Shown here one piece after another: positions 1,390 to 16,603 of a stretch of DNA of 64,000 nucleotides. The notes below the pieces were generated by a model. The model saw nothing but the letters and a program-made list of their open reading frames with translations, had not been told where the DNA came from and did not search any database. The DNA is taken from positions 372,001-436,000 of the forward strand of contig NZ_JALKCU010000002.1 of the NCBI RefSeq assembly GCF_023540835.1, read 5' to 3'. Numbering within the stretch: the first letter of the stretch is position 1; every line of letters starts with the position of its first letter. The DNA is from Marivivens geojensis. Lineage in GTDB: Bacteria > Pseudomonadota > Alphaproteobacteria > Rhodobacterales > Rhodobacteraceae. A program made the translations under genes and the position numbers.

Positions 1390-1683
1390 TCACCGATTTT
1401 GATGACGCGACGCGATATAGGTTTGCAGCAAAACACTTAACGCCTCGTGGAACCCTTCTGGGGTTGGGTAGCGGATGGGTGCACGGGGCAATCGGATGGC
1501 GCGGTCATGGAGCGTCCCGTTGCCCCAGTCAGGATGCGCCCGCCCCGTGCGTTTGCGGTATTTGTCGGCAATGTGCGCCTGCGCGATCATCGTGGCAGCG
1601 AGGTCTGGCCAATCGCAGTCAGGGCACGCCAGCAATGCCCGCGCCCCCTGTTCGAGGTCAGCCAGCAACACCGCCCGCATCAT
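1390..1683 (-). CDS. Small conserved protein downstream of GTA orfg15
   Basis: A 97-residue protein whose ATG overlaps the orfg15 stop codon (TGATG), so it is translationally coupled to the GTA operon. It has no signal peptide or membrane helix; visible features are a CPDCDW stretch near residue 21 and a basic RKRTGRAHPDWGNGT segment. A small protein at this spot is seen in other Rhodobacterales GTA loci (I recall a DUF7742 assignment but cannot verify it). The position suggests co-expression with the GTA, but a structural role is not shown. A TTG at 1692 is an alternative start. Confidence 0.7.
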   Translation of the reverse strand: MMRAVLLADLEQGARALLACPDCDWPDLAATMIAQAHIADKYRKRTGRAHPDWGNGTLHDRAIRLPRAPIRYPTPEGFHEALSVLLQTYIASRHQNR

Positions 1684-4600
1684 GCCACCCAAAGCGACCG
1701 ATACGACCCCGCGCCATACCGATCCGACAATTGCGCGACCTGCACGGTGTAGCCCGCCGTGACACCATCCGCCGCTTTATCAGCCGCCGAATAGGTGAAC
1801 TCTGGCGCGGTCACGATCACCTCGCGTTTCAGATCACCCGCCGCAAAGATACGCACCACATAGGCTTCGCGATCCTCGCCCAAGGGCACCTCTGCCGCGT
1901 CCCAGCTATCGCCATCGACCCGCGTCCGCCGAACCCACGTCGTTACATCCCCAGTCGAGGTCAGATGACACACAGGATAAGGCCTTAGCCCTACACCCGC
2001 GAACCCACTGGTGACGGTCTGATAGGTCGGATCATCATAGCCACGGTTGGCAGGGCCAAACCGATAGCTGCGTGTGACACCGCGCAGGGTGCTGGGGTAG
2101 TCGGGCTGCACCAGCGCCCCGTCCAAAAGAACCACCATCGATCCCGCAGGACGGAAAACAGCCTCGGTCCCTTGTTGCCCCCTCAGCCGCAGCCGCAGGT
2201 CATAGGTGTTTGGCGCAACGAGCACGGCCTCTTGGAACTGGAACACCTCCCAACCGTCTGCGCTACCGTCCCCAATCGCAATCGCATTGCGGCCCGACAG
2301 AACGCTCAACCGATCAGTCGAGGAGAGTTCCCCCCGCACCAATTGCACCCGCAACGCGGCCCCATGATCCCACCGTCCCGCCATCGCGGGGGCAAGCGTG
2401 GTTAACGTGGTGCCGATCGTAGCGGGTCGCTCTGCCGTGGCAGCGAGCCTATAGTCGCTGTCGGTTTCCGAATGATAGAGCGCGACCGCTCCCGGCCAAT
2501 TGACTGCCGTCGCGGCAAAATGCGGGGCATGTGCGATCTCTGTCCCCGTTAGCAGTGGAAGGTCGAGGAATACGCCCGTCACTGGCAAAGGCGCCGTTAT
2601 AGATGCCACCGTCTCTGCCAAATCATCGACCAAGGGCGGGATATAAGCGTCCGTATCAATGCGCGTCGCCTCCACCTCTTGCCCCAAGGATTGTGTCATC
2701 CGATCAATGCGATAGCTGTCACCGCTCAAGGTCACCACATCGCCTGCAGCGACATCAATCCGCGAGGGCGGCAAGGCAAATGTCACTGTGTCCCGCGCCA
2801 TGCGCTGCTCGGTCAACCAACGGTCGGTGATCTGGCTGGCTTCGGCTTTGGTCAGGACAACACCCGCCTCGGACCGCGCAACAGACTGCGTCCCACCGAC
2901 AAGGCTCGCCTCGGCCAGACGCGTGTCATAGCTGCCGTCCGCCCCCACATAGGACAGGCGGATTTTGCCCGCGACTTCAGCCTCGGGTGCACGGATGTGT
3001 TCGATGGCAGAGAACCGATCCCCTATCACCAGTTCATCAGGGGAGAGCGTCACCCCATGCGTCGGCGTACGCGTGACAAAGGTCAGTTTCCCACCCCGTT
3101 CGGTCACATCAAACCCATAGGCCAGCATCAAAGGCTGCAAAGCCGCCCGCGCCGTGTCGGTCTGGTCGATCATATAGCCACGCAGCACACCATAGAGGCG
3201 GCTGACATCGACCTCTGTCACCCCTGCCCGCCGGCACATATCGGCCACCGTTTGGGCAAGGCTGCGGGCCGACAAACGCCCGTTCATCCAGTGGCCCCGG
3301 GCGTAATTCGCCCCATCCGACCAGAGGTCGCGATTGTTGGGAAACGCAGGATAAGGCCGCGCGTCCCATGCCCAAAGGCAGGCCAGCGACATATCCACCA
3401 TCGCCCCGCCATACACTGGCGACACGGGGTTCGTCGCTGGGTCCGCGTAATGGTCGTGGATCGCGGCAATATAGGCCGCTTGGAGGGCATCATCGCGCGC
3501 CCCTGTCGAATAATACGGCAGACCGGATTCCGACGACTTCGGGTCGAGGAATTTGTTCGGCTGGTTCGTCCCCTTATCAATCGCCGCACAGCCGTATTCG
3601 GTAAAGACGATGGGTTTCGACATGGGCACCCAATCGGTGGCGGTCGCTTGCTTGACGCCCCCAACGCGGTTGTAATGGGGGTTAGACCACCAATTGCGAA
3701 TGTCCTTGGGGCGCCAAATCCACGGTTCACCCTCACCATCGGTGATCGGCGTGCGGATTTGCGCGGCGCGGGCCTCGGGCGAATGGTAAAACCAATCATA
3801 AAGCTCGCCGCCCTCGACGTTGGATCGGAGGTAATCGAGGTTGCGAATATCGCCCCATTCCGCATCGAGGTGATCCAGCCCATCGCGCCAATCAGAGAGC
3901 GGCAGGTAGTTGTCGATCCCGATGAAATCGATGTTCGGGTCAGCCCAGAGCGCGTCGAGGTGGAATATCTTATCGGCCGTGCCCGCAGGCTGCATCCCGT
4001 GATATTCGGACCAATCGGCGGCATAGGTGATCTTGGCGTTGGGCAGGATCGCTTTGACCTCTGCCGCGAGTTGGCGCAGTTGATCGACCGCAGGGAACCC
4101 ATTCGCCCCGCGGATTTCCGTGAGGCCCCGCAGTTCGGAGCCGATGCAGAACACGCCAACGCCGCCCGCCGCAGCACAAAGGTGCGCGTAGTGGAGGATG
4201 AAACGACGATAGCTCCATTCGGTCGGGCCTGTGTAGCTGACCGTTGTGCCGTTTATCACGAAATCACTGGGCTGGGCTGTACCGAAAAACGCCGCGACCT
4301 CGGCTTCGGCAAGGGCGGTTTGGTCGGGGGTTCCGGATTGATTTGGGGCGAGCGACAGCGTGATCCGACCCCGCCACGGCAGCGCAGGTTGGGCGGTGCC
4401 GCCCCACGGATCGGGTAGAGCATTATCCGACAATTGCTCCATCAGAACAAAGGGATAGAATACGGGGCTAATGCCGCGCAAATTCAGGGACTGGATCGCC
4501 TGCACCACGGATTGGTCGGTGGGCGTGCCGCCGTAAACGGGGCGATCGTCCACGTATGGCACGAGCCCTGCAGTCGCGCGGTCGGCCCCGCTGACCTGCC

Positions 4601-5516
4601 ACGGCATGTCGATAGGATCGGGGCCAAGCGTCTCTGCCCGTGGCCCGATCCTGCACGATCCACACCGCAGATCATTCCCGCACCACGACACAATGAGCGA
4701 GGCGGTCGCGAGGTTCGGCGCCTCATCCGTGAGGGCATCCAGAGACACCTCAATATCCGCCTTGCCCGCCGCTGTGTGGACGTTCAGCGACCGATAGGAC
4801 CCCAGACCATCGTTCACCGTCACGGGCGTTGTGGCCAGCGCGTATTCCCCCGTTCCTGGGATCAAGGCCACACCACGGACCTTGTGTGCGATGTCGTCGG
4901 GGCTGGTTTTTACCACCTCAAACGAAAATTGCGGGATACGGTTGCCGAACAGCCCAAGGGGCAGGTCTTCGATCACCACATAGGCGGTGCCGCGATAGGC
5001 GGGCGCGTTGCCTGTGCCCTCAACCGCTTCGATTTTCGGATCGGGGAGCTGGTCTTCGCCGCCCTTATAGACCCGCAAGGTCAGGTCATCGGCGACGATC
5101 TCTACCCCGTCCGCCCAAATGCGTCCGATGCGGGTGATCGGCCCCTCGCAGACCGCGATGGCGAGGCTGACGGTATAGGTAAAATTCGTCACACTTGGCT
5201 GGCGGAACCCCTTGCCGCTGCCGCCCGTGGTGGTCGTGCTCTCAAGGAAACGCGTCGCCCAGATAACCTGTCCCCCCACACGCATCTGCCCGTGGATTTG
5301 CGGGATCGCTGCACCCTCGGATGCACCTGTAAGACGGAAACGGTCGATGCGGCCTGTTTCGACCGCATCCGATCCGCCCATCACACGTTGGTCGATGAAA
5401 CGGCCCAAGGTTGCCCCAATGGCCCGCCCGATCACCGCATTCGACAGGCCAAGCGTGGTGCCCCCGATGGACCCACCCAGCGCCATACCTGCCGCAGAAA
5501 GAACAATCGTCGCCAT
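1680..5516 (-). CDS. orfg15: GTA baseplate megatron protein (phage host-specificity, TIM-barrel-like)
   Basis: The largest GTA protein (1278 residues), the multidomain baseplate component that forms the central fibre tip and contacts the recipient cell. The N-terminus is Gly-rich and hydrophobic (about 1-35), followed by a tail-protein region (GPITRIGRIWADG near 122). A glycoside-hydrolase-like TIM-barrel section lies at about 410-740, visible in IGSELRG (about 460), FIGIDNYLPLSDW (about 533) and IVFTEYG (about 638). The C-terminal 500 residues resemble phage host-specificity proteins. ATG at 5516 overlaps the orfg14 stop; a TTG lies one codon upstream. Length and order match RcGTA orfg15. 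The Glu in TEYG and in SELRG could be hydrolase catalytic residues, which is inference. Confidence 0.95.
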   Translation of the reverse strand: MATIVLSAAGMALGGSIGGTTLGLSNAVIGRAIGATLGRFIDQRVMGGSDAVETGRIDRFRLTGASEGAAIPQIHGQMRVGGQVIWATRFLESTTTTGGSGKGFRQPSVTNFTYTVSLAIAVCEGPITRIGRIWADGVEIVADDLTLRVYKGGEDQLPDPKIEAVEGTGNAPAYRGTAYVVIEDLPLGLFGNRIPQFSFEVVKTSPDDIAHKVRGVALIPGTGEYALATTPVTVNDGLGSYRSLNVHTAAGKADIEVSLDALTDEAPNLATASLIVSWCGNDLRCGSCRIGPRAETLGPDPIDMPWQVSGADRATAGLVPYVDDRPVYGGTPTDQSVVQAIQSLNLRGISPVFYPFVLMEQLSDNALPDPWGGTAQPALPWRGRITLSLAPNQSGTPDQTALAEAEVAAFFGTAQPSDFVINGTTVSYTGPTEWSYRRFILHYAHLCAAAGGVGVFCIGSELRGLTEIRGANGFPAVDQLRQLAAEVKAILPNAKITYAADWSEYHGMQPAGTADKIFHLDALWADPNIDFIGIDNYLPLSDWRDGLDHLDAEWGDIRNLDYLRSNVEGGELYDWFYHSPEARAAQIRTPITDGEGEPWIWRPKDIRNWWSNPHYNRVGGVKQATATDWVPMSKPIVFTEYGCAAIDKGTNQPNKFLDPKSSESGLPYYSTGARDDALQAAYIAAIHDHYADPATNPVSPVYGGAMVDMSLACLWAWDARPYPAFPNNRDLWSDGANYARGHWMNGRLSARSLAQTVADMCRRAGVTEVDVSRLYGVLRGYMIDQTDTARAALQPLMLAYGFDVTERGGKLTFVTRTPTHGVTLSPDELVIGDRFSAIEHIRAPEAEVAGKIRLSYVGADGSYDTRLAEASLVGGTQSVARSEAGVVLTKAEASQITDRWLTEQRMARDTVTFALPPSRIDVAAGDVVTLSGDSYRIDRMTQSLGQEVEATRIDTDAYIPPLVDDLAETVASITAPLPVTGVFLDLPLLTGTEIAHAPHFAATAVNWPGAVALYHSETDSDYRLAATAERPATIGTTLTTLAPAMAGRWDHGAALRVQLVRGELSSTDRLSVLSGRNAIAIGDGSADGWEVFQFQEAVLVAPNTYDLRLRLRGQQGTEAVFRPAGSMVVLLDGALVQPDYPSTLRGVTRSYRFGPANRGYDDPTYQTVTSGFAGVGLRPYPVCHLTSTGDVTTWVRRTRVDGDSWDAAEVPLGEDREAYVVRIFAAGDLKREVIVTAPEFTYSAADKAADGVTAGYTVQVAQLSDRYGAGSYRSLWVA

Positions 5517-5950
5517 CAAAGCCCCCTTTCAGGAAAGGAAAACCGCGCCGCGATGCGACGGGCCCATGGTGGGGTCAGGCGGCTCTCGATCACGCCGTGA
5601 CCCGTGTAGGAATGGATAAATGCAGGATGCGCCCCGATCTGCGATTGCAGACCGAGGTGTTTGGCGACCGACCCATCGCGCATCCGAAACAGGATCAGAT
5701 CGCCAAGCGCGGCATCCGACAGGGGTTTCGGGGTGAAATGGCGCAGAGCGGCGTCAAAGAGATCCTCACGCCCTTGGGGTTCGGACCAATCCGCGCTGTA
5801 GGCGGGCACGGGTTCAGGGAGCGGGCCGATATGCGTGCGCCACAGGCCAAGGATCAGACCCAGACAATCGCAGCCCGCCCCCTTGCACGAGGCCTGATGC
5901 CTATAGGGGGTGCCGATCCAGTCGCGGGCGGTGGTGACAATCGCGTTCAT
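5516..5950 (-). CDS. orfg14: GTA NlpC/P60-type cell wall peptidase
   Basis: A 144-residue papain-like peptidase carried on the GTA tail, thought to open recipient peptidoglycan during DNA delivery. It shows the NlpC/P60 plan: GTPYRH near 13-18, the catalytic Cys in CDCLGL (Cys29), His98 in AKHLG and a third polar residue at His113 in FIHSYTG. It is preceded by a strong GGGGGGAG ribosome site, its ATG overlaps the orfg13 stop (ATGA), and it ends overlapping orfg15. Cys27 sits two residues before the nucleophile, so the motif is CxC rather than the more usual DCSG. Confidence 0.95.
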   Translation of the reverse strand: MNAIVTTARDWIGTPYRHQASCKGAGCDCLGLILGLWRTHIGPLPEPVPAYSADWSEPQGREDLFDAALRHFTPKPLSDAALGDLILFRMRDGSVAKHLGLQSQIGAHPAFIHSYTGHGVIESRLTPPWARRIAARFSFPERGL

Positions 5951-6816
5951 CGTAGGCTCCCCCCGTCATTGCTGCCTGCACGGCGTGGGGTGGACACCAG
6001 CCAGTCTTCGCCTGGGATGTCAGGGAAGCCGCGGAAATTCAGGAGGTTGTCGAACTTTGCCTGACAGGTCGTCATGCGTTTGTCGCAACCTGCCTCCAGT
6101 CGGATCAGATCACCCGCCGCCACATCGGCCCCGAGGGGCTGCCACAGTTCGATCAGATGGCGGGGACCGTCGATACGGTTCGCCTTGATCAGACCAGAGA
6201 GACCCGTGGCAGCCCCCGACAGAACCGTCAGACACCCCTTTTCGAACCACCGCTCTGCCTGAGGCAGAGGGTCGGTCCAAAAGACGCGGTTGCGTTTGAC
6301 GGCATAGACCGAGGTTTCGTGACGAAAGGCGGGGGTGTTCAGGTCAACACGACAGGCCGCATCGCCCAAGCTAGCGGAACAGCCGCGCTGGAACACGCGG
6401 CCTTGGGGTTGGTTCAGCGCCTCTGCCAGCCCGCGCAATTCGGCGCGGAACTCTGGCCCGTTGCGGCGCATTTCCCCGATGCTGCCGCGAAACCGCAGCG
6501 CCCGTTCCGACGTGTCGGCCCAGTTGACGATCCAGAACCGCACCTCGGCCCCGTCATAGCGGCCTGCGATGATATCGGCCTCTGTGATGGCGGTGTCGGT
6601 CAAGGTGCCGATGGCCTCTGTGTTATCAACGGACAGACCCGTGGATTGTTCGATAGCCTGCGCCGACAGCCCCGTGTCTGCGCGAAACGTGATCCCGTCG
6701 AATGTCAGGTCGCGGTCGTGGTCGGTAAAGCCCAAGGTCACGCCATCGCCCCGCGTCACGGCCCATGCGCGGCAGGTGGTTGTGGTGCCTGTGGAGAGGT
6801 GAGCGAAGAGCGTCAT
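5947..6816 (-). CDS. orfg13: GTA baseplate hub protein (DUF2163 family)
   Basis: Baseplate hub protein of 289 residues that joins distal tail and megatron. The N-terminal domain (about 1-130) has the DUF2163 pattern FTDHDRDLTFDG and the C-terminal domain (from about 140) is a beta region with four paired cysteines: Cys146 and Cys155 (RGCSASLGDAAC) and Cys244 and Cys251 (GCDKRMTTC). In the published RcGTA structure the hub protein carries an iron-sulfur cluster as I recall; these four cysteines are the natural ligands here, which is inference. Start overlaps the orfg12 stop and stop overlaps the orfg14 start, both ATGA. Confidence 0.94.
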   Translation of the reverse strand: MTLFAHLSTGTTTTCRAWAVTRGDGVTLGFTDHDRDLTFDGITFRADTGLSAQAIEQSTGLSVDNTEAIGTLTDTAITEADIIAGRYDGAEVRFWIVNWADTSERALRFRGSIGEMRRNGPEFRAELRGLAEALNQPQGRVFQRGCSASLGDAACRVDLNTPAFRHETSVYAVKRNRVFWTDPLPQAERWFEKGCLTVLSGAATGLSGLIKANRIDGPRHLIELWQPLGADVAAGDLIRLEAGCDKRMTTCQAKFDNLLNFRGFPDIPGEDWLVSTPRRAGSNDGGSLR

Positions 6817-7445
6817 CGGCGCACCTCCACCACAGGAATATCAGGCACCTCGCCCGCGTTGAAATTCGCGGCTGATATGCGGATTGCGTCGGTGTCGAAC
6901 CGCACGGGCACGTCGAATTCAAATCCCGCACGGATGTCCACGCCAATGTCTGGCGGGTGGACAAAGGTGATCTCTCCGTTCGTGTAATCGACGGTGTAAT
7001 CGATGCTTTCCTGCTGCGGGATATTGCCCAGCGTCACCAGCACCGTGCCAAGGACGGGTTTGGTGATCGGGCGCTCATAGCTGCCCGCGCCTGAGGTGTA
7101 GAGCTTGCGCAGGGCAAAGGTCGATGTGACCTCATCCCCGATGCCCAGCAGTTGGTCGATACCCGATGGTGCCCGTGACGGGACGCAGGATTTGTAGTCG
7201 GCCCAGTCTTTCCACCGAAACCCATAGAGCTGACCCCTGCGGCCCTCAAAAAATGCGATCAGCGCGTCGATGTCATCCATCGACCGCAGGCCAAGGCCCG
7301 CATCATAGCGTCTACGCGAATGGGCCCACGGCGCATTGCGTTCCTCGTGACCGTTGGCGAGTGTGACAATTTCGGTGCGCCGCTCTGGTCCACCGACAGA
7401 GCCGAACGACAGCGACACGGGAAAGCGGATATCATGAAACCCCAT
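6813..7445 (-). CDS. orfg12: GTA distal tail protein (DUF2460 family)
   Basis: Tail protein of 210 residues, DUF2460/TIGR02217 type, forming the distal tail ring. The family N-terminus is MGFHDIRFPVSLSFGS, followed by RRTEIVTLANGHEERNAPWAHSRRRYDAG. I placed the start at 7445 because an AAGGAGG ribosome site sits just upstream; an in-frame extension of ten residues is possible but would bypass it. The central GFRWKDWADYKS motif is typical. Ten bases separate it from the tape-measure gene, and its stop overlaps orfg13. Confidence 0.95.
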   Translation of the reverse strand: MGFHDIRFPVSLSFGSVGGPERRTEIVTLANGHEERNAPWAHSRRRYDAGLGLRSMDDIDALIAFFEGRRGQLYGFRWKDWADYKSCVPSRAPSGIDQLLGIGDEVTSTFALRKLYTSGAGSYERPITKPVLGTVLVTLGNIPQQESIDYTVDYTNGEITFVHPPDIGVDIRAGFEFDVPVRFDTDAIRISAANFNAGEVPDIPVVEVRR

Positions 7446-7455
7446 TGTGGCCTCC

Positions 7456-8115
7456 TTAGCGGTTGCGTTGGCCACGGCTCATCATGCGCGACATTTGCGC
7501 GGCAATCTGGCTCTGGCTGCGTTGGAACCCCTGCACGTCGGGGGTGGTGATGTTCATCGTGACGTTGACCGTGCCACCGCCCTGCGCCTGAACGCCCAAA
7601 CGACCGTCCGCGGAACGGGTGAGCGGCATGATCGCCTCTGGCCCCGCCTCACCCATGAGGCCCGTGGCACCGCGCATCGGGAATGTGGTCGGGCTGGTGA
7701 CAACGCCGCCCTTGGCAAAGGGCATGACGCGGCCTTGGGTAAAGGCACCGCCCTGCGCATAGGGCATAACGGACGATACCAGCGCATTCAGACCACCCGC
7801 GAGCATCCCGCCGAAGTGATCCGTCACGGGCTTCATCGCGGCGTTATAGACGGTGTTCGACATCGCCTTGCCTAGGGTGGACAGCGCGTCAGAAAGCTTC
7901 ATCCCGTCAAAGACCACGCCATCAAAGGCCCGCCGCAGCCCACGCGAAAACCCCGCATCCAGATTGCCCAGATCGCGGGTGGTGTCGCCCAAGGTTTGGC
8001 GGATGTCGCGCAGTTGTGCATCAAAGGCGGCGGTCATCGTGGACGCCTCGCCCATGCTGGTTTCCAGCGATGAAAGCTGCGTGTCCAGATCATCCAAGCG
8101 GTCGAAATCGCTCAT
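7456..8115 (-). CDS. orfg11: GTA tail tape measure protein
   Basis: Short tape-measure protein of 219 residues, which fits a short siphovirus-like GTA tail. The N-terminal 80 residues are predicted helical and coiled coil (SSLETSMGEASTMTAAFDAQL). The middle has a hydrophobic Gly/Ala stretch (about 100-120), followed by the phage-tail AxGGAFxxGRVMPFAKGGVVTSPT motif (about 119-142) and GEAGPEAIMPL (about 152-162), diagnostic of lambda-like tape measures. The C-terminus is basic. The start overlaps the stop of the small gene upstream by four bases. Confidence 0.93.
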   Translation of the reverse strand: MSDFDRLDDLDTQLSSLETSMGEASTMTAAFDAQLRDIRQTLGDTTRDLGNLDAGFSRGLRRAFDGVVFDGMKLSDALSTLGKAMSNTVYNAAMKPVTDHFGGMLAGGLNALVSSVMPYAQGGAFTQGRVMPFAKGGVVTSPTTFPMRGATGLMGEAGPEAIMPLTRSADGRLGVQAQGGGTVNVTMNITTPDVQGFQRSQSQIAAQMSRMMSRGQRNR

Positions 8116-8297
8116 CTCGTGGTCCTTTCGTCAGGATAAAGGGTGGCCAGTTCGGCCAAACGGGCGCGGCCCATAGCGGGCGATGCGGCATCCAGCCCCG
8201 CGATGAGGAGGAGCTCTGCCGGTGTCAGCGCCCAAAATTCGCGCGGGGACAGGCGCAAACCGCGCAGGCCCAACCGCATCAGACCCGCCCAGTCCAT
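8112..8297 (-). CDS. orfg10.1: GTA tail assembly chaperone-like small protein (rcc01693 family)
   Basis: A 61-residue protein starting directly after the orfg10 stop (TGAATG) and overlapping orfg11. The sequence MDWAGLMRLGLRGLRLSP followed by EFWALTPAELLLIAG matches the small GTA family named after R. capsulatus rcc01693. In siphoviruses a short ORF between the tail chaperone and the tape measure is the GpT-like partner made by frameshifting; here it is a separate gene with its own ATG, so frameshifting need not be assumed. Confidence 0.9.
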   Translation of the reverse strand: MDWAGLMRLGLRGLRLSPREFWALTPAELLLIAGLDAASPAMGRARLAELATLYPDERTTR

Positions 8298-8612
8298 TCA
8301 GGCCACCGGCGTGAACGCACGGGCGAGCAGGAGGGCCGCCGCCTGTGCCGCACCCACGGGTCCGCCCGCAATATCGGCGGTCAATAGATCGGCGCTGGTG
8401 CCGCGCCACCCGCCCCCACGCAGACCCGCGACGCACAAGGCCAACACATCGCGCGAGGAAAACGCGCCTGTATCAAAGCGGTCGATCAGGTCGATGAGCG
8501 TTCCGGTCTGTAACTCGGCCTCAAGTTCGGCCAAGGCGCCGAGCGTCAGTTTGCACGGGTATGCGGTGCCGTTGAGGGTCAGGGTCACTTCGCCTGCGTG
8601 GGGGTTCGCCAT
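8298..8612 (-). CDS. orfg10: GTA tail assembly chaperone (gp10)
   Basis: 104 residues. The sequence begins MANPHAGEVTLTLNGTAYPCKLTLGALAELE, the GTA gp10 pattern: a beta hairpin and then a helical core. Its place between the major tail tube gene and the tape-measure gene equals that of the lambda GpG chaperone. The start overlaps the orfg9 stop by one base and the stop abuts orfg10.1. It is expected to hold the tape measure in solution while the tail tube polymerises; that role is inferred from position. Confidence 0.92.
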   Translation of the reverse strand: MANPHAGEVTLTLNGTAYPCKLTLGALAELEAELQTGTLIDLIDRFDTGAFSSRDVLALCVAGLRGGGWRGTSADLLTADIAGGPVGAAQAAALLLARAFTPVA

Positions 8613-9028
8613 CAGACGGCCGCCGTAAAGGTTAACGCACCTGCAGAGGCGAGGGAGAGTTCATAGGTTGCTTCGCCATTGTGGGTACCGGCGTATTCGA
8701 TGGCGGTGATCTGAAACGGGCCTTCGATGGTGCCGAAATCGGGGATGATCACCTGAAAATCGGGCATCTGACCGTCGAAAAAGATCTGGCGGGCGCGTTC
8801 GTCGGTGGCGTCATCTTTGAACACGCCAGAGCCAGAAAGGCTCGCTGAACGGACCCCTGCCCCTGCGAGCAACTCGCGCCAGCCGCCTTGGCTGTCGAGG
8901 TTCGTCACATCCACGGTTTCCGCGTTGAAGCTGATGCGCGTGGCCCGCAGGCCAGCGGTGGTTTGGAACTGACCGTCACCAGTCATGTCCATCTTGATCA
9001 ATAGGTCTTTGCCGTTTTGGGCTACCAT
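8612..9028 (-). CDS. orfg9: GTA major tail protein (TP901-1 family)
   Basis: Tail tube subunit of 138 residues. It carries the TP901-1 family motifs KDLLIKMDMTGDGQFQTTAGLR (about 7-28) and VDVTNLDSQGGWRELLAGAG (about 39-58), and an all-beta composition typical of tail tube folds. A GGAGAA-like ribosome site precedes the ATG. There is a 23-base gap to orfg8 upstream, while the downstream chaperone gene overlaps by one base. Confidence 0.95.
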   Translation of the reverse strand: MVAQNGKDLLIKMDMTGDGQFQTTAGLRATRISFNAETVDVTNLDSQGGWRELLAGAGVRSASLSGSGVFKDDATDERARQIFFDGQMPDFQVIIPDFGTIEGPFQITAIEYAGTHNGEATYELSLASAGALTFTAAV

Positions 9029-9051
9029 GGGATTTCTCCTGTCGTGAGGGG

Positions 9052-9447
9052 TCAGAGGTCTTCGACGCGGGCGCGGAAGATCAGGGTGATTTGGCGAACA
9101 CTGCTGCCGTCCACGCGAGACGCAGTGGCCCGCAGGAAATTCAGCGAAACGATGCGACCACGGGTCAGCGTCAGCACCGTATCAAGGAGCGCATCAGACA
9201 CCTGCGCAGCCGCCAGTTTCGCGGCGGCGAAGCCTGCGGTCTCCGTGGCGATCGTCACGCTGAAATCGTGATCCGCCCCGTGGCCCGTTTGATCAGAGCG
9301 ATCCCTGACCACCTCGGGACCGAGCGTGATGTAGAGCGCGGGCAGCGTTCCTGTGGGCAGCGCGTCATAGACGGGCGTGTCGGTGATCTGATCGGTGAGA
9401 CGTGCGTAAACCGCCGATTGTAGCGCGGCAGAAAGGGCATAGGTCAT
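9052..9447 (-). CDS. orfg8: GTA tail terminator (DUF3168)
   Basis: 131 residues, DUF3168 family, capping the tail tube where it meets the head. The N-terminus LSAALQSAVYARLTDQ and the following PVYDALPTGTLPALYITLGPE are the family signature. The start overlaps the orfg7 stop by four bases (ATGA), so translation is coupled. Assignment rests on sequence pattern and the fixed GTA order. Confidence 0.93.
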   Translation of the reverse strand: MTYALSAALQSAVYARLTDQITDTPVYDALPTGTLPALYITLGPEVVRDRSDQTGHGADHDFSVTIATETAGFAAAKLAAAQVSDALLDTVLTLTRGRIVSLNFLRATASRVDGSSVRQITLIFRARVEDL

Positions 9448-9782
9448 ACGGCGACCTCCTCTGTGACATAGCAGGTCAGGAACCGTGCATCCGAGTCGCG
9501 TTCCACCACCGCATCAATCGCAAAGAGGCGTGAGGCATCACGGAACCGCTGTTCAGGGCGCGGGCGCGAGGGCGATCCGATTGGGGCGGCGCGCACGGTC
9601 ATGGTGAACCGCGATTTCGACAGAGGGACGGCGACGCCAGACCCTTCGGCCCCAGTGCGGGCTTTGACCTCGGCCCAGAGCGTGCCCATGGGCTGCCAGT
9701 CGATGCTGTAGCCGCCTGCCCCATCCGCCACACGGATCGGCGTTTCAAGCGTGAGTTTGCGCGAAAGGATCGGCAGGGTCAT
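9444..9782 (-). CDS. orfg7: GTA head-tail stopper / head closure protein
   Basis: 112 residues, head-closure family (TIGR01563, SPP1 gp16-like). Typical features are LTLETPIRVADGAGGYSIDWQ near the N-terminus, LWAEVKARTG (35-44), and RFRDASRLFAIDAVVERD in the C-terminal beta part. It seals the portal and connector after DNA packaging and provides the tail docking surface. The start overlaps the orfg6 stop by four bases. Confidence 0.92.
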   Translation of the reverse strand: MTLPILSRKLTLETPIRVADGAGGYSIDWQPMGTLWAEVKARTGAEGSGVAVPLSKSRFTMTVRAAPIGSPSRPRPEQRFRDASRLFAIDAVVERDSDARFLTCYVTEEVAV

Positions 9783-10372
9783 TCCATGCCTCCCAACCGC
9801 AGGGTGCGATAGCGTTCGACAAGCGACGCCACCATCGGCGGCATCAGGTCACGGCCAGCGGTTTCGCCGTGACGGAAGTCGTAGAAATGAGCGGCGAGCA
9901 TGAGGACGGCCTGAGCCAGGTCATTGGGGATGTCGGACCAATTCGGGCCGTAGCCTGCGATGAAATCGAGCCGTGCAGAGCCACCAGTTGCAATCAATGG
10001 CAAGGAAAGCCCCAAAGCTACGAGCCGCGGACGGTGGAGGTCAGCGACAAGCACCCACGACGACTGCGACACAGGCGTTTCAGCGCCCAAACGGTCGATG
10101 AGTGTGAGTGATGTGACGGCAGAGACAGGCCCCACGGGGAGCACCGCGTCAGAGGCCGACCGCCAGCGATAAACGGTCCAGCTAAAATCGCGCTGGATCA
10201 GGATTTTCCCAGTGCGGGCCTCAATCGCGGCTATGGCGGCACGGAGCGCCGCGACCAGCACGCCGTCTTGCAAACCATCATCGGCAAAGCCCGACCCCAG
10301 TCGCAAATGGTCTTTGAATTCAGCGACCGGAAGCGCCGCGAGGGGCACCGTGGTCTGTTCGACTAACATCAT
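9779..10372 (-). CDS. orfg6: GTA head-tail connector / adaptor
   Basis: 197 residues of the phiE125 gp8 / HK97 gp6-like connector group. The opening LVEQTTVPLAALPVAEFKDHLRLG and the middle IEARTGKILIQRDFSWTVYRW are the family pattern, and ARLDFIAGYG followed by IPNDLAQAVLMLAAHFYDFR is the conserved helical end. A GGAGAG ribosome site lies eight bases before the ATG at 10372; a GTG one codon earlier and an ATG one codon later are alternatives. It follows the capsid gene after a 130-base structured gap, the largest space within the GTA cluster. Confidence 0.93.
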   Translation of the reverse strand: MMLVEQTTVPLAALPVAEFKDHLRLGSGFADDGLQDGVLVAALRAAIAAIEARTGKILIQRDFSWTVYRWRSASDAVLPVGPVSAVTSLTLIDRLGAETPVSQSSWVLVADLHRPRLVALGLSLPLIATGGSARLDFIAGYGPNWSDIPNDLAQAVLMLAAHFYDFRHGETAGRDLMPPMVASLVERYRTLRLGGME

Positions 10373-10375
10373 CAC

Positions 10376-10504
10376 ATCTCTCCGAAATTCCGGTCGGTTG
10401 AGGTCCGCGCGGTCACTGGCCCTTCTCGGGCGGGGACATGCTAGTGGGGTCAGGAGCCCCGCGCGGACCGTGGGGCGGCCTCCGCCGCCCGTGGATCAGC
10501 CCGC
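10376..10504 (-). other. Structured intergenic segment between capsid and connector genes
   Basis: The only sizeable gap inside the GTA operon. Right after the capsid stop, 10473-10490 forms a hairpin with a perfect 7-base stem (GGGCGGC / GCCGCCC) and four-base loop, without a T-run. Further on, GGTCCGCGC at 10402-10410 is the perfect inverse of 10461-10469, giving a 9-base stem that closes a 50-base domain containing further GC pairs. No ORF is supported here. A role in capsid mRNA stability or partial termination is inference. Confidence 0.5.
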
Positions 10505-11686
10505 TTAGGCGGTGCCGAATTTCAGCAGTTTGATCGCGTTAAAGTCGCTCACCGCGCCGCCCACACGTTTTGTCGCGTAGAACAGCACATGTGGCTTTGC
10601 CGAGAACGGGTCGCGCAACACGCGCACGTCAGGGCGTTCCGCGATGGTGTAGCCGTTGGCAAAGTCACCAAAGGCAATCGCCATAGCGTCCGCAGCCACA
10701 TCAGGCATGTCCTCTGCGATGAGAACCGGATAGCCCATAAGGCGCGCAGGTTCGCCTTGGCTCAGGCCATCCGACCAGAGGAAACGACCGTCGGCGTCCT
10801 TGAGTTTTCGCACGGTGCCTGCAGTTTTGGAGTTCATCACAAAGGTCGCGTTGGCGCGGTATTCAGCCCCGAGCGCATAGACCAGTTCGATGATCGGATC
10901 ACCGTCATCAATCGCGCCAGCGGTGCCTGTGACCACATAACCGATGTTGCCCCAGGTCCAGATCATTTCGTCGACGGTCGGGTAATCGAGGAACCCTTTG
11001 GGTTTATCCACGCCGTCACCGTTAACGAAAGCAGACGCTTCGGAGCGGGCGAATTTGTCGGCGATGCGGCCAGCGAGCCAGCCTTCGATATCAAAGGCGC
11101 TGTCATCAAGCAGCCGTTGCGAAATCTTCGGCATCGCAGAGAGTTCGTTGACGGGAATGGTGATGCGGTCGATCTGCGGGGTTGCGGTCTCGGACAGGTT
11201 CGCGGCCTCATTCGCCCAGCCCGAGCCCATCTCAGTGTGGTCGATCAGCACGTCATACGAGGTCGATTCAACGGTAACGATGCTGGCGATTGCGCGGATC
11301 GATGCGGTCGCGGTCAGCGCCGATTTGATCGTGTCAGAGGTCTGCGGATCGACAAGGTAGCCACCATCCGCCGCAACAGCGGTCGACATCGCCTTGCCTT
11401 CAAGCGGCAGATCACGAAGGCCCTCGTCTTCGCCCGAACGAAGGTATGCGGCAAAGGCCTTTTGGTGTGGGGCCTCGATCATCTCAGCGCCCGAAAGCGC
11501 GGGGCGTGACGCCATCATGGATTTACGGTTATATTTGGTCATGCGGTCTTCCTGCTGCTGAAGTTTGGCGTGAACGCCATTAGAAAACTGTTTGAATTCA
11601 CATACGAAATCGGTGATCGCCGATTTCAGGTCTTGGACCGGAGACATGTCTTCTCCGGCCCGAGGGGTGGCCTCGGGTTTGGTCAT
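10505..11686 (-). CDS. orfg5: GTA major capsid protein (HK97 fold)
   Basis: 393 residues of the HK97 family. The first 100 residues or so are helical and charged (QDLKSAITDFVCEFKQFSNGV) and correspond to the delta domain removed by the prohead protease. The mature part begins around KAMSTAVAADGGYLV and carries family motifs PVNELSAMPKISQRLLDDSAFDIEGWL, AFVNGDGVDKPKGFL and the final FYATKRVGGAVSDFNAIKLLK. A GAGAGGA ribosome site precedes the ATG. The protease gene lies 24 bases upstream. The capsid packages about 4 kb of random host DNA in characterised GTAs. Confidence 0.96.
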   Translation of the reverse strand: MTKPEATPRAGEDMSPVQDLKSAITDFVCEFKQFSNGVHAKLQQQEDRMTKYNRKSMMASRPALSGAEMIEAPHQKAFAAYLRSGEDEGLRDLPLEGKAMSTAVAADGGYLVDPQTSDTIKSALTATASIRAIASIVTVESTSYDVLIDHTEMGSGWANEAANLSETATPQIDRITIPVNELSAMPKISQRLLDDSAFDIEGWLAGRIADKFARSEASAFVNGDGVDKPKGFLDYPTVDEMIWTWGNIGYVVTGTAGAIDDGDPIIELVYALGAEYRANATFVMNSKTAGTVRKLKDADGRFLWSDGLSQGEPARLMGYPVLIAEDMPDVAADAMAIAFGDFANGYTIAERPDVRVLRDPFSAKPHVLFYATKRVGGAVSDFNAIKLLKFGTA

Positions 11687-11710
11687 ATTCGGTCCTCTCG
11701 AATGGGTCGG

Positions 11711-12244
11711 TTAGTCGGGGATCAGCGCGGCGCTCGCCTGCCGAAACGCATCGGCCAGATCGCGCAGATCAGTGGTCAACGCGTCGTCGGATTTGCCCGC
11801 AACACGCGCCTCGGGCAGCATCGGAAAGGTGACGAGCGACACTTCCCACAGCTCTACCTCGGTCAAGAGGCGCTGGCCTTGGTTGGTTTTCGTAGATTTC
11901 ACCGTGCGATAGCCGATGGACAGCCCGTCGATGGCGCCCACAGCAATCAACGCGGCGGCCTCGCGGCCCTTTTCAACATCAGTGAGGATACGACCTTTGA
12001 CCCAGAGGCCACGGTCGTCCTCGCGGAGTTCGTCCCAGATACCGATGGGCTGCGCGGGGTCATGCTGCCAGAGCATTTTCACGCCCGACCGTTTCGCCAA
12101 AGATGCGGCATAGGCCCCACGGGCCACCACATCGTTGCCCTGATCGACAGCATCAAAGAGGGATGCGTAGCCTTCGATGATATGGTCGTCCTTCAGCGCA
12201 ATATCGCACGATAAGCGGCTGAATTTATGTTCTAATTCCATCAT
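11711..12244 (-). CDS. orfg4: GTA prohead protease (HK97 family, peptidase U35)
   Basis: 177-residue serine protease that removes the capsid N-terminal domain during maturation. The family core is IEGYASLFDAVDQGNDVVARGAY (23-45), KMLWQHD with catalytic His61, GLSIGYR with catalytic Ser109, and ELWEVSLVTFPMLPEA with the acidic third residue (Glu131 or Glu134). Two consecutive ATG codons form the start (12244 and 12241). It ends 24 bases before the capsid gene and starts two bases after the stop of the small upstream gene. Confidence 0.95.
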   Translation of the reverse strand: MMELEHKFSRLSCDIALKDDHIIEGYASLFDAVDQGNDVVARGAYAASLAKRSGVKMLWQHDPAQPIGIWDELREDDRGLWVKGRILTDVEKGREAAALIAVGAIDGLSIGYRTVKSTKTNQGQRLLTEVELWEVSLVTFPMLPEARVAGKSDDALTTDLRDLADAFRQASAALIPD

Positions 12245-12245
12245 T

Positions 12246-12434
12246 CTATCCTATCACGATGCGGATGAGTTCCAGCCCAGAGATCAGCGCAAAAGAGGCG
12301 ATGACCAGCCACAAGAGGCTTTCGACTTTGGCTACGATGGCCTCAATCCGGCTCAGGCGGGCTTCGAGTTGGGCGAACCAAAAATCGTTCACGGGTGCGG
12401 GGCGATTGGGGAGAGGCACGATGTTATCCTGCAT
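12246..12434 (-). CDS. orfg3.5: GTA head formation small membrane-type protein (rcc01685 family)
   Basis: 62 residues, overlapping the end of the portal gene by 11 bases. The first half is soluble (NIVPLPNRPAPVNDFWFAQLEARLSRIEAIVAKVE, with a short coiled-coil run) and the last 23 residues are a single hydrophobic helix. This matches the short GTA head-formation family named after R. capsulatus rcc01685, present between portal and protease. Exact function is not established; the hydrophobic tail is unusual for a virion assembly protein. Confidence 0.88.
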   Translation of the reverse strand: MQDNIVPLPNRPAPVNDFWFAQLEARLSRIEAIVAKVESLLWLVIASFALISGLELIRIVIG

Positions 12435-13602
12435 CGCCTACCTCAATCGCGGGCAGGCCCAAGAGCGCCCGTTTTTCCGCCGCCGTCAGAAAGGTTGCAT
12501 CGCCCACGCGACGCCATGCGGCCTCGCGTTCGGTGGCGAGCGCTGGGATCTGGTCGAGGTCGGGCCGAAGGTCGATGCGTTCACCCGTGAAATCGGACAG
12601 CCAATCGGCAATGACCGAAGTCACACGCGTGGCGAGAGGCAGGACGGTCAGGCGATAAAACGCGCGGTTGGCCTCTTGGTAGTTGGCATAGGTCGCGTCC
12701 CCCGGAATTCCGAGCAGCATAGGCGGCACGCCAAAGGCAATCGCGATCTCGCGGGCGGCGGCCTCTTTGGTTTTCTGGAACTCCATATCCGAGGGGCTAA
12801 AGCCCATCGGTTTCCAATCGAGTCCCCCCTCGAGCAGCATGGGGCGGCCTGCGTTGCGCGCACCTTGGTGCATGGTTTCCATCTCGTGCAAGAGACGGTC
12901 GTATTGGTCGCTGCTGAGGCTGCCCTGACCATCCGCGCCTTTGTAGACAATCGCGCCTGATGGACGTGCCGCGTTATCAAGGAGTGCCTTGGACCAGTTC
13001 GACGCGGCGTTGTGCACGTCGATGGCAGAGGCTGCGGCCTCGAGCGGGGAAAATCCGTAATGGTCGTTTTGCGGGTGGAAGGATTTGATGTGACAGATCG
13101 GGCTTGCGCCATCGCCCACTGTGAAACGGTGTTTTTTGCCCGCAACGGTATAGTCGTAGCCGATGGGCCAGCCATCTGCGCCTTGGACGACGGACATGCG
13201 TTCGGGGCGCAGGGCGTGCAGTTCGACGGGAAGGGTCCCATCGCCCACGGCCTCTAGATAGGCGTCGCCCGACAAGAGAAGATAGCCATAGACCGCCTCG
13301 AGCAATTCAGCGCGGCCCTGAGCAGCGTTCGGACGGGCGAGGAGGTCAGCCACGGGGTGCGCATCATAACGGCGGTCGCGGTCTTGCAGGATCAAGGGCA
13401 GCGCGGCGGCGGCCTCTGCGATCATGCGCACCGCACGAAAGCCCACAGGATTGCGGGTAAAACCCGATTTGGTCAGCGTCACCGTATCGCGGGCAGACCA
13501 GACAGCACGGCCAGCCCCCATCGCCAGCACCTTGCCCGTGGCCGAGGCTTTGGCCTCAACAGGGGCATCTTGCGCCGTGCCACGCTTTAGAAAGTCAAAC
13601 AT
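12424..13602 (-). CDS. orfg3: GTA portal protein (HK97 family)
   Basis: 392-residue portal, the dodecameric DNA entry ring of the head. Typical motifs are MFDFLKRG at the start, GFTRNPVGFRAVRMIAEAAAALPL (about 44-67), LLARPNAAQG, GYLLLSGDAYLE, HIKSFHPQNDHYGFSPLEAA and the C-terminal GVPPMLLGIPGDATYANYQEANRAFY. A GGAG ribosome site sits before the ATG at 13602; the frame is open another 45 codons upstream, overlapping the terminase gene, but that stretch is rich in Cys and Pro and looks non-coding. Confidence 0.95.
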   Translation of the reverse strand: MFDFLKRGTAQDAPVEAKASATGKVLAMGAGRAVWSARDTVTLTKSGFTRNPVGFRAVRMIAEAAAALPLILQDRDRRYDAHPVADLLARPNAAQGRAELLEAVYGYLLLSGDAYLEAVGDGTLPVELHALRPERMSVVQGADGWPIGYDYTVAGKKHRFTVGDGASPICHIKSFHPQNDHYGFSPLEAAASAIDVHNAASNWSKALLDNAARPSGAIVYKGADGQGSLSSDQYDRLLHEMETMHQGARNAGRPMLLEGGLDWKPMGFSPSDMEFQKTKEAAAREIAIAFGVPPMLLGIPGDATYANYQEANRAFYRLTVLPLATRVTSVIADWLSDFTGERIDLRPDLDQIPALATEREAAWRRVGDATFLTAAEKRALLGLPAIEVGDAG

Positions 13603-13706
13603 CCATCGCTCCTTCGTTTCCGCCCCAATGCGTCGTTGGAGCCAATATGCAGGAAAGGTGTTCACATCCCCCCAACGCAGCGTGCGCAGGGGGGCGCAAC
13701 AGGGCG

Positions 13707-15080
13707 TCAAAGGTGACGCACACGGGGCGCTTGCCATGTTGCGGCAGGGGCGATCACCAGATCAAAGAGCGCCCAAACGAGGGCATCGACTCGGTCTGGA
13801 GAGCCCTGCCCCTGAAACCCGTTTGCCGTCATCAGGCACATCTCATCCTCTAGCGCCCCAAGGTTGCGGCCATGATGCACCCGCCCCTGTTCGTAGAGGG
13901 CCGCGACGGGTTCGGCGCGGGCGACCTTGCCCTTGGACGCACGAACGGGGCGATAAGGGACGAGGGGGTCGATCTGGCGCACGACCTCTTCGACCAGAGC
14001 GCCGCCTTGGTTCACTTCGGCCACCATACGGTCGGCCCCATGACGGTGGAGCGCATCGACCGCCGCCTGAGCCCATTGCGAGGGTGATGCGGCAGAGACG
14101 GTCGCGTCCTCAATCACATAAGCGCGCCAGTTTTGCGGCGGGCCATCGGTCACAACGCCTGCCACGATGATCCCGCAGTCATCCGATCCCTTGTGCCCCG
14201 TGACGGGCGGATCGACGGCGACAACAACGCGGTCGCACTGCGGAATACGGTCTACCCGCGAGGTTTCGACCATATGGGACGTCCACAGCGCGCCTTCGGC
14301 ATCAGCCAAAAGAACGCCGTCCAATTCCTGCCGACCAAGGCGGGTCCCCGCATAGCGGCGCTGCACTTCATCTAGGAACCCCGCCGCGAGGTTGGCACGG
14401 TTGGCAGAGGTCGGCGCATGGGTCACAACAGTGCTCTCGCGGTCGAGTATGCCGCGCAACACGGAGGCATTGCGCGGTGTGGTCGTCACGCAAGCCCGTG
14501 GATCATCGCCAAGACGCAGGCCAAATTGGATCATATCCCAAGTTTCCTGCCCCTTTTTCCACTTCGCGACCTCATCCGCCCAGACCGCATCGAATTGCGG
14601 GCCGCGCAGGGTTTCGGGGTCAAATGCGGAAAAGACCTGCGCGATGGCGCCGTTGGGCCATTGCAGCATCTTGCGCCCCGCGATCCATGTCGGACGACGA
14701 TCAGGGGGCGAACAGGCCATGATCCCGCTGTCGCCAAAGATCATCACCTCGCGCGCCTGATCATAGGTTTCACCGACGATGGCGACACGGGCGGCACGGC
14801 CCTTGTCCATCGGGCGTGATCCTTCGACCTGAGACCGCACCCATTCGGCCCCTGCCCGCGTTTTGCCCGCCCCTCGTCCGCCAAGGATCACCCATGTGCG
14901 CCAATCGCCAGATGGCGGCACCTGATGATCCAAGGCCCAGAAGTCGAACAAAAAGGGCAGAGCGCGAAGCTCTGCCGGTGTAAGTTTATTCAGAAACTGC
15001 GTCTGCTCTGTGGGCGTTCCTGATGCGATCAAGTCTGAACCCGAGTGACACCCGCACGGCGTCAAAGTCGATTTCTCCAT
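13707..15080 (-). CDS. orfg2: GTA terminase large subunit
   Basis: 457-residue packaging motor. N-terminal ATPase: Walker A GGRGAGKT (67-74), Walker B FDAVWADE (163-170) and coupling motif CVTTTPR (about 197-203). C-terminal RNase H-like nuclease: VVVAVDPPVT with Asp290, GSDDCGI with Asp300 and Asp301, and SPDRVDALVWA near the end. As annotated, the start overlaps the small terminase gene by 95 bases; a TTG at 15032 or another later start would shorten the overlap but lacks a visible ribosome site. In GTAs this headful-type enzyme packages host DNA without sequence preference. Confidence 0.93.
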   Translation of the reverse strand: MEKSTLTPCGCHSGSDLIASGTPTEQTQFLNKLTPAELRALPFLFDFWALDHQVPPSGDWRTWVILGGRGAGKTRAGAEWVRSQVEGSRPMDKGRAARVAIVGETYDQAREVMIFGDSGIMACSPPDRRPTWIAGRKMLQWPNGAIAQVFSAFDPETLRGPQFDAVWADEVAKWKKGQETWDMIQFGLRLGDDPRACVTTTPRNASVLRGILDRESTVVTHAPTSANRANLAAGFLDEVQRRYAGTRLGRQELDGVLLADAEGALWTSHMVETSRVDRIPQCDRVVVAVDPPVTGHKGSDDCGIIVAGVVTDGPPQNWRAYVIEDATVSAASPSQWAQAAVDALHRHGADRMVAEVNQGGALVEEVVRQIDPLVPYRPVRASKGKVARAEPVAALYEQGRVHHGRNLGALEDEMCLMTANGFQGQGSPDRVDALVWALFDLVIAPAATWQAPRVRHL

Positions 15081-15315
15081 TCTCTGGACCCTCTTTGTAT
15101 TTGTCGTGGAATGCCTCTTCGGCTTTGCGGACCCGCACGAACATTTCTTGCAAAACAGCGAGCTGTGCGGTGGCCTTTTTCGGCGCGTCGGTGTTGCCGA
15201 CCTCTGCCTCTGCGATCAATTCGTGCAGCAATTTCAGGGTGCTGTCGTAGACCTCGCTCACCTCTGAGAGGCGTGATCGCGTTTGGTCTGCCTGTTGTTG
15301 GTCCCGATTTATCAT
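14986..15315 (-). CDS. orfg1: GTA terminase small subunit
   Basis: 109-residue, highly charged helical protein (RSRLSEVSEVYDSTLKLLHELIAEAE and QLAVLQEMFVRVRKAEEAFHDKY), first gene of the GTA cluster. It matches GTA small terminases, which lack the usual specific DNA-recognition role, consistent with random packaging. The ATG is preceded by a weak AGGGA site. Its last 95 bases overlap the proposed start of the large terminase in another frame. The 133-base leader before it holds a palindrome and a hairpin listed separately. Confidence 0.9.
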   Translation of the reverse strand: MINRDQQQADQTRSRLSEVSEVYDSTLKLLHELIAEAEVGNTDAPKKATAQLAVLQEMFVRVRKAEEAFHDKYKEGPENGEIDFDAVRVSLGFRLDRIRNAHRADAVSE

Positions 15316-15360
15316 TGGTTGTTCCCTATCGGTTGCCCCGCCAGATCGAGAAACGACAAG

Positions 15361-15382
15361 GGGCGGCCCAAAAGGACCGCCC
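15361..15382 (-). terminator. Hairpin between mltG and the GTA operon
   Basis: Perfectly spaced 9-base arms (15361-15369 and 15374-15382, one G-U pair on the minus strand) with a four-base loop. Minus-strand sequence after it reads CTTGTCGTTT, only a broken T-run. It could end the fabF-mltG transcript or attenuate read-through into orfg1, 46 bases further on. Confidence 0.5.
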
Positions 15383-15428
15383 TGCGTCTTCTAGCCTGTG
15401 ATGACTTTACCCGAAGGGTGCGAAAGAC

Positions 15429-15438
15429 CGGTTAACCG
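15429..15438. promoter_or_regulatory. CGGTTAACCG palindrome upstream of the GTA cluster
   Basis: Perfect ten-base palindrome 114 bases upstream of orfg1 and just past the mltG stop. It contains TTAACC, which resembles a CtrA half-site; CtrA controls GTA expression in R. capsulatus through GafA. Only one half-site is present, so a role is speculative. Confidence 0.3.
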
Positions 15439-15448
15439 ACCGTTCGCA

Positions 15449-16603
15449 TCAGTTCGCTGCACGCTCCAATGCGCGGTAAGCGGCGACGTTGCGGTTATGC
15501 TCGTTCAGAGTGGCCGCAAAGACGTGACCGTCCGCAGGGTTCAGCGTTTTCGCGACAAAGAAAATGTAGTCACTCTGCTCTGGGTTCAGAACCGCCTCGA
15601 TGCTGGCCTTACCGGGGTTAGCGATTGGGGTCGGCGGGAGGCCGTTGATAACATAGGTGTTATAGGGCGTTTCGCGTTGGAGTTCGCTCTGGCGCAGGCC
15701 ACGACCCAAGGTGCCTTGGCCTTTGGTAATGCCATAGATCACGGTCGGGTCCGTTTGGAGGCGCATGCCCTGTTCCAGACGGTTGATAAAGACCGAAGCG
15801 ACCAAAGGACGTTCCGATGCAATGCCCGTTTCCTTTTCCACGATAGAAGCAAGTGTCAGCGCCTCTTCGGGGGTGTCGAACGGTAGCCCATCGGCACGGT
15901 TTTCCCATGCCTGTGCGAGGATAGTGGCCTGTGCGGCCTCCATCCGGGACAGGATGTCGGCAACGCTCGCGCCTTTGGTAAATTCATAGCTGTCGGGGGA
16001 CAAAGAGCCCTCAGCAGGGATCACATCGACATCACCGTCGAGCGTATCAATGGCATTGAGGCTGGTCATGATCTGCCAGCTGGTGACACCTTCGGCGATG
16101 GCGATACGGAAACGGGTGTCGTTTTGGCCAGCCACGGTTGTGTAAATCTCGGGCACTTCAGAACCGAGTTCGAAATCCGCGACCTCGTCATAGCGGGCAG
16201 TTTCGGGGTCCATTTGGCGGACCTCTACAGTCGCCGCGTTCACGCCGATGCGATAGAGAATTTCGGTGCCACAGGTGCTCTGCCCACCACGGGTCACGAT
16301 ATCAATGATCGATTCCATCGAAGACGCAGCAGGCACGATAAAGCTACCCGCTTTGAGCTGGTTGCTCGCGCCTGTGTAATCCACCCCCATGTTAAAGATC
16401 ATCTTGGACGAAATCGCGCCCTGCTGATCCAGATTGTCCGCAACGCGACGGAAGTTCGTCCCGCTCGGCACCTCCATGCAGATCGCCTGCTCCAGAGGGC
16501 CTTCGGCGCGATACTGAGATTTACCCCAGAGGACGACGCCCCCCAGAACAAATAGCAGAACAATCAGGAACGACAGCGCGTTGGACGCGATGTTACGCCA
16601 CAT
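15449..16603 (-). CDS. mltG: Endolytic murein transglycosylase MltG
   Basis: Inner-membrane lytic transglycosylase (YceG family, 384 residues) that cuts nascent glycan strands and so limits their length. There is one N-terminal membrane helix (about 9-27), a LysM-like region (about 40-100) and the catalytic domain with ASIVEKETG (252-260, catalytic Glu at 256 or 258), RPLVASVFINRL and the terminal YNTYVINGLPPTPIANPG. Its ATG overlaps the fabF stop (TAATG), so the two are co-translated. It lies directly upstream of the GTA cluster. Confidence 0.96.
   Translation of the reverse strand: MWRNIASNALSFLIVLLFVLGGVVLWGKSQYRAEGPLEQAICMEVPSGTNFRRVADNLDQQGAISSKMIFNMGVDYTGASNQLKAGSFIVPAASSMESIIDIVTRGGQSTCGTEILYRIGVNAATVEVRQMDPETARYDEVADFELGSEVPEIYTTVAGQNDTRFRIAIAEGVTSWQIMTSLNAIDTLDGDVDVIPAEGSLSPDSYEFTKGASVADILSRMEAAQATILAQAWENRADGLPFDTPEEALTLASIVEKETGIASERPLVASVFINRLEQGMRLQTDPTVIYGITKGQGTLGRGLRQSELQRETPYNTYVINGLPPTPIANPGKASIEAVLNPEQSDYIFFVAKTLNPADGHVFAATLNEHNRNVAAYRALERAAN

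Follow-up and report, generated by a model that had tools for sequence, protein, structure and literature searches.

A gene transfer agent cluster of the RcGTA type in Marivivens geojensis and its lesion-bearing counterpart in a sister genome

Organization of the cluster

The window analysed here is a 64,000-nucleotide stretch of the Marivivens geojensis genome (GCF_023540835.1, contig NZ_JALKCU010000002.1, positions 372,001 to 436,000). The genome comprises 3.18 Mb in 18 contigs and is 99.97% complete. An 18-gene unit occupies positions 1390-15315 on the minus strand and resembles RcGTA, the gene transfer agent (GTA) of Rhodobacter capsulatus. GTAs are phage-like particles by which fragments of a bacterium's own DNA pass to other cells. 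It is composed of g1 to g15, including g3.5 and g10.1, followed by g16. By its sequence, the unit is an RcGTA-type GTA cluster in the genome of a marine member of the Rhodobacterales. An earlier note, made from the letters alone, had described a complete cluster at 1680-15315. The 17 genes it named are all present in canonical order on the minus strand, and none of them contains an internal stop or a frameshift. The 18th gene, g16, was overlooked, and it is g16 that carries the unit to position 1390.

Beginning from the upstream end, g1 (14986-15315) encodes a putative small terminase of 109 residues, g2 (13707-15080) the large terminase (PF03237, 90.2 bits; PF17289, 68 bits), and g3 (12424-13737) the portal (TIGR01537, 224.7 bits). 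They are followed by g3.5 (12246-12434), assigned as a head formation protein, and by the prohead protease gene g4 (11711-12244; TIGR01543, 118.2 bits). The assignments of g1 and g3.5 draw on where the genes lie, on their size, and on the presence of homologues in each of the seven Marivivens genomes, a set that includes the window's own, and not on an above-cut-off model. The major capsid protein, encoded by g5 (10505-11686), matches TIGR01554 with 371.5 bits against a cut-off of 27.5, and the RcGTA capsid structures 6tb9 and 6tba with 584 bits (E value 7e-175).

The connection to the tail is formed by the head-tail connector g6 (9779-10375; TIGR02215, 190.7 bits), the head completion protein g7 (9444-9782; PF05521, 65.5 bits), and the tail completion protein g8 (9052-9447; PF11367, 72.1 bits). 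The major tail protein g9 (8612-9028; TIGR02126, 101.5 bits) precedes g10 (8298-8612), a tail protein of the GTA-gp10 family (PF11836, 94.4 bits), and g10.1 (8112-8297), whose match to TIGR02216, the rcc01693 family, equals the cut-off of 56.1 bits. A short tape measure of the RcGTA type is encoded by g11 (7456-8115; NF058675, 366.7 bits, cut-off 220). The remaining tail genes encode the distal tail protein g12 (6813-7475; TIGR02217, 273.6 bits), the baseplate hub g13 (5947-6816; TIGR02218, 306.7 bits, cut-off 80.5), the NlpC/P60 cell-wall peptidase g14 (5516-5950; TIGR02219, 162.6 bits), and the megatron baseplate protein g15 (1680-5519). The megatron scores 1777 bits against NF048004 (cut-off 800) and 1541 bits against the RcGTA chain in 6tba and 6teh; it is above the cut-off in all seven Marivivens genomes.

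With the first available start codons, the 16 junctions from g1 to g15 measure -95, -31, -11, +1, +24, +129, -4, -4, +23, -1, 0, -4, -20, -4, -4, and -4 bases, negative values being overlaps. Overlaps of 1-4 bases are thus found at 7 of the 16 junctions, and the earlier statement that most genes are coupled in this way is overstated. Both g2 and g3 probably start downstream of the first available codon, past the first ATG in g2 and near 13602 in g3, and g12 possibly does so as well.

The DUF7742 gene g16 (1390-1683; PF24891, 93.2 bits, cut-off 27) overlaps the end of g15, and an open reading frame (ORF) of this type comes after g15 in all seven Marivivens genomes. The flanking genes are also on the minus strand. 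The serine acetyltransferase gene cysE (491-1309; TIGR01172, 227.3 bits) lies past g16. On the other side, a gap of 133 bp (15316-15448), which from its coordinates is the presumed promoter region, separates g1 from mltG/yceG (15449-16603; TIGR00247, 245 bits) and fabF (16603-17862; TIGR03150, 638.5 bits). These profile matches agree with the flanks named before, and the same arrangement is described in R. capsulatus: yceG is immediately before g1, while g16 starts 3 bases past g15, is cotranscribed, and is followed by cysE1 (PMC9552610). The GafA binding site of R. capsulatus is placed 75-125 bases upstream of g1 (PMC9638019). A scan of the 18 cluster genes with curated and Pfam families identified no integrase, repressor, or replication gene, as had been claimed, and g14 is the sole cell-wall enzyme among them.

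Dispersed activator, lysis, fibre, and tailspike loci

The earlier note had pointed to gafA, lysis, and fibre loci as ones to look for elsewhere in the genome. All are found there, in open frames. The gafA product is 367 residues long and matches DUF6456 with 180.7 bits; a divergent DUF6477 gene adjoins it. The motif TTAA-N7-GTAA, which we take to be a CtrA-type consensus, is found upstream of gafA in all seven Marivivens genomes, and it has one match in the 12-kb gafA locus versus 0.14 expected. The lysis pair consists of a GTA_holin_3TM protein (PF11351, 92.5 bits versus a cut-off of 24.8) and a holin-associated muramidase (NF040573, 334 versus 240). A third small protein accompanies them and is XhlA-like, below the cut-off (29.6 versus 34.7).

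One DUF2793 gene is present (98.8 bits versus 27). Its protein matches one chain of 8gtc, a structure entry in which a megatron chain is present as well; the "Ribonuclease III" label on the matched chain is taken to be wrong. The N terminus of rcc00171 is reported to carry DUF2793 (PMC8265664). This report and the 8gtc match favour a tail fibre, the better reading of the gene, and an assignment as head spike was dropped.

A 767-residue protein encoded beside lysS in an open frame (L128:3891-6194, on contig C12 of the window genome, G000) fits the tailspike TspA. Residues D509, H537, and D570 of this putative TspA are invariant in the seven Marivivens genomes, and each is numbered four higher than its published equivalent among D505, H533, and D566 (PMC13420450). 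The same offset of four relates the likewise invariant E381, E575, E579, and D649 to E377, E571, E575, and D645 of that report.

A separate tail module is located in the same genome at about 2439-11269 of locus L110 (G000:C17:50000-69900). This second PF13550 locus was considered as a second GTA and rejected, as its tape measure is long and of the lambda type, its tail tube belongs to a different family, and it encodes a DUF6950 protein. From the four of its proteins that were scanned, the module is read as an ordinary prophage tail module, which explains the second PF13550 match.

Conservation, selection, and lesions in a sister genome

Over the best segments, the window capsid protein shares 99% identity with its counterpart in M. 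donghaensis KCTC 42776 (genome G006) and 81% with the one in M. niveibacter. The best 80 of 305 related loci were kept, and the 73 of at least 20,600 bases were scored for a core of 15 genes, g2 to g15 with g10.1; g1 and g3.5 were omitted because BLAST misses them at such distance. All 15 genes are present as single ORFs at 85% coverage or more in 65 of the 73 loci. The order of the core genes found is kept in 71, and mltG is directly upstream of g2 in 62. Together with the flanks shared with R. capsulatus, this supports the vertical inheritance proposed earlier. The eight exceptions are two isolates (L003 and L056), four loci titled metagenome-assembled genome (L020, L029, L033, and L080), and two titled uncultured (L017 and L035); their short or missing core genes may reflect assembly error, divergence, or real loss.

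Ratios of nonsynonymous to synonymous substitution (dN/dS) were calculated by the Nei-Gojobori method (NG86) against G006, the nearest species genome, with the later g3 start, the g5 codons before the stop described below, and the open part of gafA. The values range from 0.009 to 0.138 across the 17 GTA genes and are 0.100 for g16 and 0.005, 0.039, and 0.028 for the flanking fabF, mltG, and cysE. The terminase, portal, protease, and capsid genes lie between 0.009 and 0.048, and the tail genes between 0.020 and 0.116. In the G003-G004 pair of Marivivens genomes, the ratio is 0 to 0.135 over the 17 genes, except for g10.1, where 8 nonsynonymous and 8 synonymous changes yield 0.334. A presumably metagenomic IMG/VR contig, L157, aligns to the window without gaps for 10,075 bases at 97.6% identity and covers 15 genes, namely mltG and 14 of the GTA set (g1-g12). 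The two differ there by 28 nonsynonymous and 196 synonymous changes, with no stop codon among them, which gives a nonsynonymous-to-synonymous polymorphism ratio (pN/pS) of 0.048. These comparisons indicate strong purifying selection on GTA genes that occupy a fixed chromosomal place, in line with the active selection suggested in the earlier note.

Of the 246 family genomes, 228 have a DUF6456 match. Among 84 DUF6456-positive genomes examined, 71 encode a GTA-type capsid (at least 55% identity), 10 have no match, and 3 have a remnant or a prophage-like protein of 31-33% identity. Among 18 DUF6456-negative genomes, 3 have a capsid match, one of them in two pieces with a stop flagged (71/84 versus 3/18, Fisher p = 5.5e-8, with neither relatedness nor assembly completeness corrected for). 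In a control on 90 family genomes, all 71 GTA-type capsid matches proved free of internal stops. More than one DUF6456 match is found in 7 of the 246 genomes: four have a full-length match and weaker ones elsewhere, one is split by contig ends, and one carries an open-frame insertion; among the matches listed, G006 has the only frame-split gafA. Two further genomes are possible cases of decaying GTAs. One is G009, which lacks a capsid match and whose DUF6456 match bears a single flagged stop that is perhaps its own end. The other is G043, in which the capsid is reduced to an 89-residue piece containing a stop. In IMG/VR, 443 stretches encode capsid relatives, and the best 80 of them (L156-L235) are all at least 67% identical to the window capsid. 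IMG/VR viral contigs thus include GTA clusters, which are counted there as viruses.

The KCTC 42776 cluster displays two lesions. First, its g5 (L003:10001-11182) contains a TAG nonsense codon at position 304, which is tryptophan in 80 of 81 alignment rows, those of the window and the other 79 loci. Second, its gafA (L111:4477-5482) lacks 68 bp between two 8-bp direct repeats, GGGCTGGG, copies of which lie 68 bp apart in gafA of the window species. The resulting frameshift leaves the DUF6456 domain without its end. For R. capsulatus GafA, DNA binding is reported to reside in the C-terminal part, and GTA activation to require the whole protein (PMC9638019). Single copies of g5 and of gafA were found in G006, and the remaining GTA genes tested there have open frames. 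Judged by its GTA proteins, G004 is as distant from the window species as other Marivivens species are, whereas KCTC 42776 is close.

An IMG/VR contig, L156, is 96.2% identical to G006 over 11,089 gap-free bases; gafA lies outside it. Its capsid gene is intact, so the g5 stop is not fixed in that lineage. The stop codon aside, g5 of G006 and L156 differ by 1 nonsynonymous and 44 synonymous changes, suggesting that the gene was under selection until recently. The g5 contig of G006 has about 69-fold coverage, which speaks against an error; gafA is on a different contig. The lesions may represent an assembly error or a change in culture. Tentatively, and with somewhat less than even confidence, we consider that the KCTC 42776 lineage lost GTA production very recently through two independent knock-outs, of the activator and of the capsid, and that production persists in the window species and in other close relatives.

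Interpretation and comparison with known systems

The cluster is very probably the head-tail operon of a working RcGTA-type GTA, and the window strain is likely to produce particles. By homology to R. capsulatus, CtrA would help switch on gafA, and GafA would activate the promoter upstream of g1 together with the scattered lysis, fibre, and tspA loci. The products of g1-g16 would assemble into small tailed particles, and these would take up random host DNA. Lysis of the producer cell would fall to the holin and muramidase, and the tail fibre and TspA would help the particle reach a recipient.

Several observations weigh against this interpretation. The two lesions in G006 indicate that members of this clade can lose GTA function. 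Two members of the cluster are weak by sequence: g1 matches no NCBIfam or Pfam family, and g3.5 reaches 24 bits against a cut-off of 50 for NF048001. The co-occurrence of gafA and capsid was counted without regard to phylogeny or to gaps in the assemblies, and a GTA-type capsid is missing from 13 of the 84 genomes with gafA. The presumed connection to the CtrA phosphorelay consists of the CtrA-like site upstream of gafA, and when the 12-kb gafA locus was shuffled 200 times, 19 of the shuffled sequences also had at least one such match. Alignments of the regions upstream of g1, lysis, fibre, and tspA genes gave no convincing common GafA motif. The putative TspA is assigned by synteny, size, and residue spacing, and the spacing filter also passed two further residue sets (207 or 208, 236, and 270). 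No genes for the head spikes rcc01079 and rcc01080 were identified, but a single proxy was used, the RcapNL gene at 7217-7678, guessed to be an rcc01079 relative; it had no useful PDB or Pfam match and was dropped, and the window genome itself was not searched.

Among the alternatives, a decaying remnant, with frames open by chance or because function was lost recently, survives best, and the nonsense codon in g5 and frameshift in gafA of G006 speak for it. It is nonetheless improbable for the window: all 17 genes are open at low dN/dS, selection is evident against L157 as well, and the gafA, lysis, fibre, and tspA frames of the genome are open. More doubtful still is that the proteins are kept for a use other than DNA transfer, as a headless killing or biofilm-clearing particle. 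Degradation of biofilm by TspA is reported in a preprint (PMC13420450), and in modelling the benefits of recombination were too small to maintain GTAs (PMC6209664). However, a headless particle needs no terminase, portal, protease, or capsid, and constraint on the genes for these is no weaker than on those for the tail. A self-replicating, self-packaging inducible prophage is highly improbable: the capsid and tail proteins do match phage families and phages with RcGTA-like genes exist (PMC11409702), but integrase, repressor, and replication genes are absent from the 18 scanned, host genes abut both cluster ends, mltG keeps its upstream place in most related loci, and the lysis and fibre genes are located elsewhere.

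The cluster is an ordinary example of an already known type of element, standard and well maintained. One paper that mentions both Marivivens and gene transfer agents deals, in the passages concerned, with a gene of Ruegeria pomeroyi (PMC10041152). What maintains GTAs under selection despite lysis of the producer is described as an open question (PMC6209664). If the G006 lesions are real, and regardless of whether their origin is natural or lies in cultivation, the two species provide a closely related GTA-plus and GTA-minus pair that would allow the costs and benefits of a GTA to be measured. The lesions also carry a warning: since the nearest species has a closely similar cluster although its capsid and activator genes are both broken, the presence of a near-complete cluster alone is no proof of production.

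The window system shares with RcGTA its gene content and order, a megatron and capsid that match the RcGTA structures, the placement of yceG/mltG ahead of g1 and of g16 and then cysE past g15 (PMC9552610), and dispersed gafA, lysis, tail fibre, and TspA-like loci. It differs in belonging to another genus, in its diverged sequence, and in the one DUF2793 fibre gene found. Other Rhodobacterales GTAs, including those of Yoonia, Roseovarius, and Tateyamaria, mostly have the same full core and order and differ in sequence and, in the eight loci named above, by a short or missing core gene. To these the window adds a further genus whose GTA gene set is complete and under constraint, a TspA-like tailspike being part of it. 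The KCTC 42776 cluster (L003) is the closest counterpart, with a nearly identical capsid and the same set of genes and flanks, and it is distinguished by its g5 stop and gafA deletion. The main new point is this intact and broken pair of GTAs in one genus, a natural loss-of-function comparison.

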